Shown: positions 4,105 to 12,095 of the stretch, one piece after another
Numbering within the stretch: the stretch's first letter is position 1
Layout: each line of letters begins with the position of its first letter
Assembly (NCBI RefSeq): GCF_005405585.1
Contig: NZ_BJEQ01000002.1
Coordinates: forward strand, 310,001-374,000
Length of the DNA: 64,000 nucleotides
Direction of reading: 5' to 3'
DNA from: Agarivorans sp. Toyoura001
Lineage (GTDB): Bacteria; Pseudomonadota; Gammaproteobacteria; Enterobacterales; Celerinatantimonadaceae
Position numbers and translations under genes: made by a program
Notes under the pieces: model-generated
The model's database searches: none
Seen by the model: the letters and a program-made list of their open reading frames with translations, nothing else
Told to the model about the DNA's origin: nothing

Positions 4105-4338
4105 CGAATAAGCGATTCCCGACCACCCACTGTACAAAAATCATTCAAAATATTTTTGCTAACTGTGATTAGCGTGGGGATGGCACTAAAAAATAATTAA
4201 TCCAACCATTAAATATTATTCTTATCACTAACGTTAACTCACACAAACGTGACTAATGATTGATTTATTATTTACTGGTGAAACCGCCACTTTCATTTAC
4301 CAAGCTGTTTCATGGATAAGCTAACATCCCTCAACTAA
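4105..4338. other. Intergenic region without a gene
   Basis: AT-rich spacer between arsR and the LPMO leader. No convincing open frame, terminator or repeat was seen; it probably holds the LPMO promoter. Confidence 0.5.
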
Positions 4339-4500
4339 GTTCCCTTAAATAACTCAAGTAACATTACGGACGTATGTGGTCGTAGTTGCTGAGCTTAATT
4401 TGCCACGCCGAGCGTGTTACTCGCTGGTGAAGGCAAAGCCCGGTTCACCAAGCATTTTGGCGAATCAGCGTAAAAATACTAATAATGTTAAGGGAACAAC
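4339..4500 (+). promoter_or_regulatory. Structured 5' leader RNA sequestering the LPMO ribosome-binding site
   Basis: The bases GTTCCCTTAA (4339-4348) are an exact reverse complement of TTAAGGGAAC (4488-4497), which contains the AGGGAA ribosome-binding site of the LPMO gene. TAACATTA (4359-4366) likewise matches TAATGTTA (4483-4490). Nested inside are GCTGA/TCAGC (about 4388-4392 with 4465-4469), GCCA/TGGC, a CGAG/CTCG hairpin and a GGTGAA/TTCACC hairpin enclosing GGCAAAGCC. The whole forms a closed multi-branch RNA ending on the start codon. In Vibrio cholerae the chitin-binding LPMO gene gbpA has a c-di-GMP-I riboswitch, but the canonical c-di-GMP-I core is not recognisable here. Function is inference. 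Confidence 0.6.
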
Positions 4501-6003
4501 ATGACTAACAAACTAATACTCTCACTTTGTATACTTGGCAGTAGCCAAGCCATTGCCCACGGCTTAATCGTAGATCCCCCCTCGCGTAATGCTCTTTGTG
4601 GCTTAACCGAAAAACCCGATCAAGCCACTAGCCAACATTGTATCGACGCCTTTGCCAACGATGCGCAAGGTGGTTACAAATTCATGAGTGTACTGACTCA
4701 TGCCGAAGGGCGTGCAGTGGTATCTCCTTTGCCAGCCAATGTATGTGGTTTTGACAGCGAAACGTGGGAAGGCGGCGCCACACCTTGGGACGTAGCCACG
4801 TCTTGGCCGGGTCAACCCGCTCAAGCTGGGCCACTCGATATTACCTGGAACATTAGCTGGGGAAATCACTTCTCCGACACGCGAGAGTTTCACTATTGGA
4901 TAACCAAACCAGGCTTTGTATTTGACCCGAACAAAGCCCTAAGTTGGGATGACTTTGAAACAGAACCGTTTTGTGTATTGCCATACGATGATAACAACCC
5001 CAATGCTAACCCAGCGGTAGTATCTGACAAAGAAGCGGTTACCTTCACCACCACCTGTACCCTGCCAGAACGCAGCGGTCATCAGGTAGTGTACGGTGAA
5101 TGGGGGCGTAACTCTTGGACCTTTGAGCGTTTTCATGGCTGTATTGATTTAGCCTACGCCGAAGACACCTTAGGTAAACCAATTGCCGATTCGCAGACCT
5201 TAGCCACCAATCAAGACACTCCATTAAGCATTACCTTAAGCGGCAGTGATTCAAATGGCCAAATTGCCAGTTACCAAGTGCTTAGTCAGCCTGCAAACGG
5301 GACATTAAGTGGCACAGGTGCTGCACTTACTTATACCCCGGTCGCCGGATTTATTGGTGATGACGACTTTAGCTTTAGCGTGACAGACAACGAAGATTTA
5401 GAGTCTGCACCTGCGCAAATTAGCATTTCGGTGAAATCTACCGCAAATACCGCGCCTGTCGCAAGCTTTGAGGCAAGCAGCAAAGGTTTAGTCGCCAGCT
5501 TTGATGCAAGTGCTTCAAGCGATGCCGAAAACGATGCTCTGAGCTACCAATGGGACTTTGGCGATGGATACAAAGCGAGTGGCGCATTGGCAAGCCACAC
5601 TTACGATGCAGCAGGCAGCTACTCGGTGTTGCTCAGCGTATCCGATGGATTGTTAGAAACCACCAGCAGCCAAGAACTGGTGCTTAGTGCATTGCCGCCT
5701 ACCCAAGCGGGTTGTGAATATGTGGTAGTTGATCAGTGGGGATCTGGGTTTAACGCAGAGATCCGTTTAATCAATACTGGTGAGCAGGCAATTAACGGCT
5801 GGCAAGTTAGCTGGGCTTACGCCGACGGCAGCAGTGTGAATCAGCTATGGAATGGCGTACTCAGTGGAAATGGCCCTTACACGGTAAGCAACACCACGTG
5901 GAACGGCACCATTGAGCCGGGTCAAACTATCAGTGTGGGTTTCCAAGGATCCGGCAATGGGAACTTAGAGGTACCAGTTGTTAGTGGTGATATTTGCCAA
6001 TAG
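4501..6003 (+). CDS. Secreted AA10 lytic polysaccharide monooxygenase with PKD and CBM2-like modules
   Basis: A 500-residue secreted protein. The signal peptide ends QAIA-H, so mature His1 is His20, the first ligand of the copper histidine brace; His123 (SWGNHFSDT) is the likely second. Order of domains: AA10 catalytic domain (20 to about 222, conserved Cys residues, ending WTFERFHGCIDLAYA), a cadherin/Ig-like module (about 226-312), a PKD module (about 315-395, YQWDFGDG), and a C-terminal cellulose-binding CBM2-like module (about 404-500). AA10 enzymes oxidatively cleave chitin or cellulose; the CBM2-like module favours cellulose, but both remain possible. A structured leader overlaps its ribosome-binding site and a strong terminator follows, so it is monocistronic. 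Confidence 0.9.
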   Translation: MTNKLILSLCILGSSQAIAHGLIVDPPSRNALCGLTEKPDQATSQHCIDAFANDAQGGYKFMSVLTHAEGRAVVSPLPANVCGFDSETWEGGATPWDVATSWPGQPAQAGPLDITWNISWGNHFSDTREFHYWITKPGFVFDPNKALSWDDFETEPFCVLPYDDNNPNANPAVVSDKEAVTFTTTCTLPERSGHQVVYGEWGRNSWTFERFHGCIDLAYAEDTLGKPIADSQTLATNQDTPLSITLSGSDSNGQIASYQVLSQPANGTLSGTGAALTYTPVAGFIGDDDFSFSVTDNEDLESAPAQISISVKSTANTAPVASFEASSKGLVASFDASASSDAENDALSYQWDFGDGYKASGALASHTYDAAGSYSVLLSVSDGLLETTSSQELVLSALPPTQAGCEYVVVDQWGSGFNAEIRLINTGEQAINGWQVSWAYADGSSVNQLWNGVLSGNGPYTVSNTTWNGTIEPGQTISVGFQGSGNGNLEVPVVSGDICQ

Positions 6004-9533: not shown

Positions 9534-12095
9534 ATGATAACAGCAAAACAGTCGATGACTTTGCCATGGCGATCAGCCCTTGGCTTAGCCGCACTTTTAA
9601 GCATCTCAAGCGTACATGCAGACACCTGGCATTTTAGAGGTACACCCAATAACTGGGCCAGTACAGCAATGAGTGAAGTTAACACCCACCTTCACCAAAG
9701 TTGCCAAACATTTTCTGCCACTAATGCCCGTTTTAAAATTGACCATTATGGCGATTGGAATGACAGCTACCCTGCTGATGATTTTTTAATAAGCCAAGCT
9801 GGTAGTTATCAAATAAGCTTTAACAGCAGCGATAAAACCATCACCGTTGATTCGGTAAGCCAATGTGAAGACCCTGCAACAAGCACCAGTAATCAGCAAA
9901 CTAATACGACAGATACTCGCTTCTATTTTGATGCCAGTGACTTTACCAGCACTCCGACTATTTGGGCTTGGATTTCTAATGGCAGTGCCATTTCTCAGTT
10001 AGAAGGATACAGCTGGAATAGCCAACAAAGCTTGTTGGTAGATAGTGACAGTGGTTATTACTATTGGCGCTTACCGAGTGCTTATCAAGCAGAGTTAGAT
10101 GCCGGTTTAAAACTCAACTTTATCATTGATAAGAATGATGAATTTAGCCGAAACAACAGCGGATGCTACAGCGAAAACCGTTGGTACCAAAGTTTAGCTA
10201 CTTGCTTAGATAAACCCTTTCAACCTTATATAGGGCCTTACCTCACTTTGCTTCAGCCGCAATATTCGGGTGACTACAATACCGCTAGCATCTTAGACCC
10301 CAGCGGTAACATGGTGATCAACTACGAGTTAAGCGGCGCTGATAGTAACTTTAGCGCTGCGGTGTTTTACCGCCCAGCTGGCCAAACTAGCTGGATAGAA
10401 CAAACAGAAGATGAGGTAGCCCCCTTTGGCGAAGGTTGGGGAAAAGTTCACCATATCACTCTCACCAACTTACAAGCCGATACCGAATATCAATACAAGG
10501 TAATTGGGCCAACCGGTAAGTTTTCTGCTGAATACGCATTTAAAACCGCGAGTACCAATATGGATTACAGCCGCTTTTTAGTGGTGGGTGACATGCAAGA
10601 TGAACAAGGCGAACAGCGCTGGCACGATATTGCCCAAGCCATTAGCAGTGAGCACATGGACGACTTTGACTTTATTATTACCGTAGGCGACATGGTAAAA
10701 GACGATGTTAGCCATAGCTCTGAACGCTTTTACTGGTGGAAAGTATTTTTTGATAAAGGCCAACAGCTGTTTGCTTCTAAGCCCATCATGCCAGCAATGG
10801 GGAATCACGATACACCAGGTAATATCGGGGTCAGTGATTCAGAGCAATACTGGAGCAATGCCGAAGATACCCGTTCATTTAGAAAATACTTTTATCTGTC
10901 TCCAGATATGAGCTACCCAGACTATTACAGCTTTAGCTATGGTAATGCTTGTTTCATGAGCGTTAACTCAGAAATCCCGGTTTTTTATGGCCGTCATCCA
11001 GAACGAGATAACGGCAACAATGCAGCAACGCAAGCCAACTGGCTACAGCAAGAGGTAAACAAAGCACAGGCCTGCCCTTGGAGTTTTGCTTATTTTCATG
11101 TGCCACCTATTAACCCTGCAGGCGGCAAAAGTGAAGTGGCTTTTGTCCGCCCATATACTGATTATTTTAATCACAAATTAGATTGGTCTATTACTGGCCA
11201 CGTGCACGAATACCAGCGCCTAAAACCAGTACATGCAACCAGTAACACTTTAGATTTTAATTAATCGGGTTATGGCCGAACCGCTGATAAAGGTGTGGGG
11301 TATATGATTGCCGCTCCTGCTGGTCAATGGCCTCGAAATACTACCAGTAGCAACATGCACCAATTGGCGTTTTACCCGCATAACAGCAGCGGTACCGCTT
11401 ACGAAATTGGCTTTAGCATCATCAATGTTTCGGCCAATAATTTTGAGCTGAAAACCTATGGTATGGGTAGCGTGGGCGACAAAGTTCAGCCTTCTGGTTA
11501 CCGCTCTGGCGACGACAGAAGCAAGCAGCTCATGGATACTCTGAGTTATAGTAAACTGGCCTTAATTGCTAATGCAGGTCCAGATATTAATGTGAATCAA
11601 GGCGACACTGTGAGCTTTGATGGCAGCGATTCACAAGCCTTAAGTGGCTCTATTATTAGTTACCAATGGTCAAACGGCTTAACCGGAGTGTCTGCCAGCA
11701 AGGTCTACTCAGAACTGGGCAGTTTTCCGGTAACGCTTACCGTTAAAGATAACCAAGGAAATAGAGCTACCGACAGCGTAGTGGTGACGGTGCTTGATCA
11801 ATCAGCTAACTACAAAAAAGATTTTGAGAGCGTTGATTTTCGTGGAACTGCAAACAGTTGGGGAAAAACCGCGATGAACTTAATCGGCGACAATACCTGG
11901 CAACTGATAGTGAACGTTACCGATAGCCAGCCCAGTTTCAAATTTTACGCCAACGGAAAATGGTATGGCGATGACCAAGCTGATGGAGAAACCCACAGTA
12001 ACGAGCGCGCCAATATTGCCCTTTCTCAAGGACCGGGTTTGTATCAAATTACCCTCACTGACCATACTCGACAATATCGAGTCACAAAGTTGTAA
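9534..12095 (+). pseudogene. Secreted purple-acid-phosphatase-like metallophosphoesterase interrupted by an in-frame stop
   Basis: One frame of about 853 codons is split by a TAA at 11262-11264; the frame continues unshifted (SGYGRTADKGVGYMI) to 12095. Order: signal peptide (1 to about 29), carbohydrate-binding-like module with FRGTPNNW, second binding-like module (about 125-225), purple-acid-phosphatase N-terminal FN3 (about 235-340), calcineurin-like domain with GDMQ (near 351), GDM, GNHD (near 423) and GHVHEYQR (near 555). After the stop come the end of the phosphatase fold, a PKD module (about 680-765) and a second FRGT-type module. The stop falls directly after the last metal-binding motif, so the truncated product could fold partly. 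Sequencing error is possible. Confidence 0.8.

Follow-up and report, generated by a model that had tools for sequence, protein, structure and literature searches.

An AA10 lytic polysaccharide monooxygenase (LPMO) gene of Agarivorans sp. Toyoura001 is probably preceded by a multi-branched RNA leader whose closing helix contains the ribosome-binding site. The likeliest role of this segment, seen in a single genus, is that of a cis-acting leader that lowers LPMO translation. I give about even odds (roughly 50%) to the fuller reading, in which the closing helix P1 hides the Shine-Dalgarno (SD) sequence and is opened through the head of the inner hairpin P2 or through P1 itself. By computation, the leader has a stable fold and an exceptional SD pairing, and it has orthologues in which P2 carries compensatory changes. 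The features are listed below; the window is the whole stretch of 64,000 nucleotides that was analyzed.

4330 to 4337, plus strand: CTCAACTA, the same in all four leaders and predicted to be unpaired, adjoining the 5′ side of P1 in the window (alignment A2 and fold)
4339 to 4348, plus strand: 5′ arm of P1, the anti-SD strand (fold, genome control and shuffles)
4353 to 4393, plus strand: P2 hairpin, the most conserved inner helix, with compensatory changes (fold, alignment, and a P2 model made without the window)
4363 to 4370, plus strand: ATTACGGA, the invariant strand of P2 (alignment and motif reading)
4366 to 4370, plus strand: ACGGA, a CsrA-type ANGGA motif inside ATTACGGA
4399 to 4437, plus strand: P3 hairpin, its sequence diverged from the relatives (fold and alignment)
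4438 to 4469, plus strand: P4 hairpin, its sequence also diverged (fold and alignment)
4488 to 4497, plus strand: 3′ arm of P1, holding the ribosome-binding site AAGGGAA at 4490 to 4496 (fold)
4501 to 6003, plus strand: secreted AA10 LPMO gene downstream of the leader (Pfam and PDB sequence search)

Fold of the leader

The predicted fold of 4339–4500 consists of a 10-bp helix and three inner domains (P2, P3, and P4), with an energy of −54.1 kcal/mol. Dinucleotide shuffles of the same segment averaged −37.4 kcal/mol (standard deviation 3.7; z −4.5), and none of the 200 was as good. For the longer context 4330–4530, with the ribosome-binding site kept, z was −2.9 and 4 of 400 shuffles were as good. 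P1 is an exact pairing of GTTCCCTTAA (4339–4348) with TTAAGGGAAC (4488–4497). The first-pass annotation had proposed that this pairing and a second exact one of 8 bp jointly close the leader. Both complementarities are present in the window, the shorter one between TAACATTA (4359–4366) and TAATGTTA (4483–4490), but the joint closure does not hold. Residues 4359–4366 sit in the 5′ arm of P2, residues 4488–4490 are used by both pairings, and the 8-bp pairing is missing from three relatives in alignments compared by eye. The 8-bp helix was set aside as window-specific and in conflict with P2.

That the closing strand is the SD itself was borne out, the 3′ arm of P1 containing AAGGGAA, and the proposed nested inner helices, at least three in number, are found as P2, P3, and P4. 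In contrast, GGCAAAGCC, which had been described as presented by an inner helix, lies in no loop; its GGCAAA (4432–4437) is the 3′ arm of P3, and it was dropped as a motif for want of conservation in the three relatives in alignments compared by eye. Overall, the core of the earlier observation holds and the observation is confirmed in part; its interpretation is supported in part.

The SD pairing was compared with a genome control of 464 kb (20 stretches of 20 kb and the window), in which a simple ORF caller gave 356 starts. The 202 starts whose upstream region shared no more than 30 nt with another ORF were kept, and 154 were dropped. Among these 202 leaders, the window leader ranks first in exact SD complementarity (10 bp), second in fold energy, fourth in fold z (25 shuffles each), and tenth in low SD accessibility. 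When the tail with the ribosome-binding site was kept and the rest of the leader shuffled, an exact partner for the tail arose in 2 of 5000 leaders at 10 bp and in 65 of 5000 at 8 bp.

Relatives and conservation

A DNA search of 60 relatives gave four matches including the window's own genome. Orthologous leaders were found before the same gene in three genus-mates, G002, G004, and G005. In each of them, the genes flanking the locus on both sides correspond to the window's, except for insertions in G005 and a permease/ArsR stretch unmatched in G004. In G004 (L056, G004:C1:3092000-3106000), only about 13 codons of the LPMO gene are intact, and CDS fragments remain nearby. The leader stretch of G004 is 92% identical to that of G002, and the adjoining stretches are 94–95% identical. 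The comparative set is thus four leaders, two of which (G002 and G004) are nearly alike and one of which (G004) stands before a truncated gene.

On the four leaders, 43 of 75 positions are invariant in 4321–4395, 17 of 75 in 4396–4470, 6 of 15 in 4471–4485, and 10 of 15 in 4486–4500. Conservation is not unique to the leader, since the upstream DNA at 4246–4275 (16 of 30 invariant) is nearly as conserved. P2 is the hairpin best kept across the four leaders. Its arm ACTCA/TGAG, found in three leaders, is changed to ACTTA/TAAG in G005, and ATTACGGA is invariant while its partner strand differs between species (TCGTAGT, TCCTAAT).

In alignment A2, the cells that pair make up 82.8% (shuffle mean 79.9%; 4 of 500 shuffles reach this value) and six pairs are changed on both sides (shuffle mean 3.0; 9 of 500 reach six), both counts being biased because the scored structure is the fold of G005 itself. 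The covariation score alone is unremarkable, as 67 of 500 shuffles reach it. When the partners were shifted by one to three columns, the paired cells fell from 82.8% to 32–50%. A separate run of RNAalifold returned P1, P2, P3, and P4, with a slightly unfavorable covariation term (+1.19). Alignments A3 and A4 were left out; their window row is one base off in P2.

SD hiding among the species

For the relatives, the single-fold z is −5.9 (G005), −2.3 (G002; reached by 3 of 200 shuffles), and −1.6 (G004; reached by 11 of 200). At 20 °C, the fraction of the SD predicted to be unpaired is 0.0004 in the window, where none of 400 shuffles keeping the ribosome-binding site was as low, and 0.007 in G005 (3 of 400 as low). 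The values are 0.26 in G002 (178 of 400) and 0.17 in G004 (57 of 400). P1 is part of the best predicted fold of the window and of G005 and is suboptimal in G002 and G004; forcing it at 37 °C costs nothing in the former two, 3.6 kcal/mol in G002, and 1.6 kcal/mol in G004. The SD is thus predicted to be paired beyond chance in the window and G005, and SD hiding is predicted to be strong in these two species. It is less clear in G002 and G004, whose SD accessibility is matched by many shuffles.

The relatives may use another helix. G002, G004, and G005 allow a local 8-bp pairing of GTTCATTCC with GGGAATAAC, in which a single C-G pair has become U-G in G004. This helix belongs to the best predicted fold of G002 and is absent from the window. 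The first-pass annotation had called for a check of conserved pairing and had named homologous leaders lacking it as evidence against its claim. P2, with its compensatory changes, came through this check, whereas P1 is dominant in only two of the four species, and its suboptimal state in G002 and G004 goes part of the way toward such counter-evidence.

Upstream DNA

Sigma-70 and CRP scans upstream of the window leader gave no convincing site. A weak promoter-like site (7.5 points) is common to the three relatives and is not in the window, and the best promoter-like site of the window (4457–4486) lies inside the leader and is unshared with the relatives. Since no promoter was located upstream, I infer rather than observe that the leader is transcribed. 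A leader peptide was considered and rejected: each of the four leaders contains short GTG/TTG frames, those of G002 and G005 being partly similar, and none is common to all four. A 35-bp block at 4136–4170, which precedes the LPMO start by about 330 bases, contains TTTGCTAA-TGTGATT and is 88.6% identical in G002 and G004. This block is a possible regulator site.

Distribution of the leader

A covariance model of the four leaders (R1) was run with strict filters, by which weak matches are lost, over two partly overlapping samples of 394 genomes of the order and 369 of the class. In the order sample, five genomes matched at E ≤ 0.1, with one place per genome: the four leaders and a match in G088 (E 0.055), which was rejected as chance, being AT-rich with five P1 pairs broken. 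In the class sample, the single match is the window's own. A second model (R2) was made from the P2 core of the three relatives, with the window left out. It matched 7 of 388 genomes at E ≤ 0.5, namely the four leaders and G315, G374, and G289 (E 0.02–0.45), with a second place in G002 (0.43). In the window's genome the leader is its sole match (E 2.4e-6). The side matches in G315 (0.02) and G002 were discarded, as such E values per genome are at chance level over 388 genomes. The leader therefore appears, from these searches, in one genus only among the genomes sampled.

Rfam 15 gave no family above the gathering threshold over the window, and weak listings (a virus hairpin, an sRNA, a human lncRNA, and a microRNA) were taken as chance. 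The earlier remark that the leader lacks a c-di-GMP-I core agrees with the comparison with the GEMM model (RF01051), which has no match at the gathering score in the window or at E up to 10 over 4250–4620. The three relatives have no c-di-GMP-I riboswitch match at E up to 2.

The LPMO gene

The encoded protein has LPMO_10, Big_9, PKD, and CBM_2 domains (Pfam). In a PDB sequence search, the solved structures nearest to it are chain 9i1u (E 3.1e-73) and 6rw7, TtAA10A (E 2.5e-53). GbpA, also an AA10 LPMO, is a far weaker match (E 3.6e-12). TtAA10A (6RW7) is described as highly active on cellulose (PMC6767633). From these similarities, the window enzyme is nearer to a cellulose-active AA10 than to GbpA and is probably directed at cellulose. 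Of 12 family genomes, 3 encode the LPMO protein (the window's own, G002, and G005); of 394 order genomes, 4 do so at E ≤ 1e-30. The fourth, G374, has no leader by model R1. An LPMO search of genome contigs led to a single distant locus (L013), where R1 has no match.

The first-pass annotation had cited the regulated gbpA leader as precedent. According to PMC4744006, the Vibrio cholerae gbpA leader Vc1 is a c-di-GMP-I riboswitch (RF01051). The likeness stands in that both AA10 LPMO genes have a 5′ leader that is long and structured. The analogy is otherwise weak because the enzyme resembles the cellulose-active AA10 more than GbpA. Moreover, the window leader is about 170 nt in length against 225 nt or longer for the gbpA 5′ UTR (PMC4744006), has no GEMM match, and uses the SD itself as its closing strand.

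Elsewhere in the window, an in-frame stop codon (11262–11264) splits a metallophosphatase-like gene, which carries a purple acid phosphatase N-domain, into the frames 9534–11264 and 11295–12095.

Proposed mechanism and alternatives

In the proposed mechanism, 4330–4500 would be the 5′ leader of the LPMO mRNA, a multi-branched RNA of about 170 nt. P1 would tie its 5′ end to the ribosome-binding site, with P2, P3, and P4 inside, and would cover the SD in the window species. Since P1 would hide the SD, little LPMO would be made in the default state, the hiding repressing translation. P2 would be the recognition site: a factor acting on its head (ATTACGGA) or on P1 may open the junction and raise LPMO translation. 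In generic SD-sequestering 5′ UTRs, a closing helix covers the SD. The window leader shares this feature and differs in having a long-range 10-bp helix around three domains and its own conserved P2. Because the RNA was seen in a single genus, I consider an RNA-binding protein a likelier opening factor than a metabolite, and CsrA is the first candidate and the most testable trigger.

A CsrA target is a tentative proposal that I would not rate as probable, and it is compatible with the SD-hiding leader, as both can hold. CsrA would bind ACGGA at the P2 head, AGGGA in the SD, or both, and CsrB would relieve it. CsrA might repress translation by bridging to the SD or activate it by opening P1, and LPMO translation would be tied to the Gac/Csr growth-state switch. 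All four leaders have ATTACGGA-N-GT invariant and an ANGGA both upstream (ACGGA in P2) and overlapping the SD (AGGGA), though every SD of the AGGGA type contains ANGGA anyway. The leaders of the window, G002, and G004 hold just two GGA triplets each, both in ANGGA, and that of G005 holds four, three of them in ANGGA. Each of the seven genus genomes has one CsrA match and three to five CsrB matches, and ACGGA is present in each of the three CsrB copies examined (one each from G000, G005, and G006). The AC and GU flanking GGAN resemble the CsrA SELEX consensus (PMC7652899), with a loop of 4 nt rather than 6 nt.

The predicted folds speak against this candidate. Instead of lying open in a hairpin loop, the GGA of the window and of G005 is base-paired, and freeing it at 20 °C costs 2.7 and 10.6 kcal/mol, respectively, against 0.0 in G002 and 0.2 in G004; pairing of the GGA weakens CsrA binding, according to PMC7652899. 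The two sites are 125 nt apart, outside the bridging range of 10–63 nt given there, unless the fold brings them near. The CsrA-controlled E. coli leaders of glgC, ymdA, and moaA likewise have a GGA in an upstream hairpin and another at the SD, along with structure sequestering the SD whose closing or opening could depend on a protein (PMC7652899). The window leader differs from them in its spacing and in its GGA being paired in two species, and CsrA binding is a candidate only. As for the CsrB-type RNA (RF00018) itself, six genus genomes have three matches apiece and G003 has five, 17 of the 23 being over the Rfam cut-off. The copies are mostly tandem, about 700 bases apart (for example, G000:C8:68554-70276, L024), with one in G006 lying 2.6 kb off.

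It is also conceivable, although I consider it doubtful, that the leader is real and its SD pairing reflects species-specific drift or mRNA stability, with no regulated opening. The lack of a dominant P1 in two of four species and the ability of the relatives to form the 8-bp local helix instead would fit. However, the pairing is far above chance in the window and G005, and P2 and the 5′ strand of P1 rank with the most conserved non-coding DNA here.

Rather improbable is a reading of P2 as a DNA inverted repeat, an operator or promoter element, with the RNA fold secondary and transcription perhaps starting within or after P2. The head of P2 can be read as two 7-nt half-sites 10 nt apart, a convincing upstream promoter was not found, and a dyad of equal geometry, ATTATGG-N10-CCATAAT, underlies the weak R2 matches in G315 and G002, both of which precede an nfsB-like nitroreductase gene. 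On the other hand, those matches are at chance level, the 3′ half-site varies and the outer arm changes in a compensatory manner, and it would remain unexplained why the SD is paired in the window and G005. The dyad upstream of the nfsB-like gene (an assignment from an NCBIfam match below its cut-off) is present at six of ten family loci in two genera (G000, G001 with a single change, G002, G004, G005, and G007 of the second genus) and absent at the other four. It also occurs in one genome of another family. The loci with the dyad are L067–L072 and L063, with single changes in L068 and L063. The dyad is probably a separate operator that resembles P2 in geometry.

An undescribed metabolite or ion riboswitch, in which P2–P4 form the aptamer and P1 the expression platform, is unlikely. 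The multi-helix junction, the invariant P2 strand, the SD in the closing helix, and the lack of an Rfam match above threshold are as expected of one, but even inside one genus there is little conservation in P3, P4, and the junction strands. The four leaders of this genus are the sole convincing matches in the strictly filtered, overlapping order and class samples, with one place per genome. A metabolite-sensing class is possible; a widespread one is disfavored because of the restriction to one genus in the samples searched. Equally speculative is a broader proposal, that a sensory RNA of one genus, unlike the Rfam classes, gates translation of an LPMO that probably acts on cellulose, the SD being exchanged between the distal P1 and the proximal helix of the relatives, with ATTACGGA as the sensor site. 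An RNA thermometer, suggested by an SD in a helix and the absence of an Rfam match above threshold, is very unlikely, since the predicted SD pairing is nearly constant from 4 to 42 °C (unpaired fraction at most 0.003 in the window and 0.034 in G005, moving only from 0.16 to 0.23 in G002 and from 0.17 to 0.22 in G004).

Implications

No published description of such an LPMO leader was found in the titles and abstract openings considered. Should the SD-hiding leader gate translation, an LPMO gene would have a post-transcriptional switch distinct from the gbpA riboswitch. LPMOs depend on copper and an oxidant; thus, a translational lock would suit the cost of producing an LPMO without its substrate.
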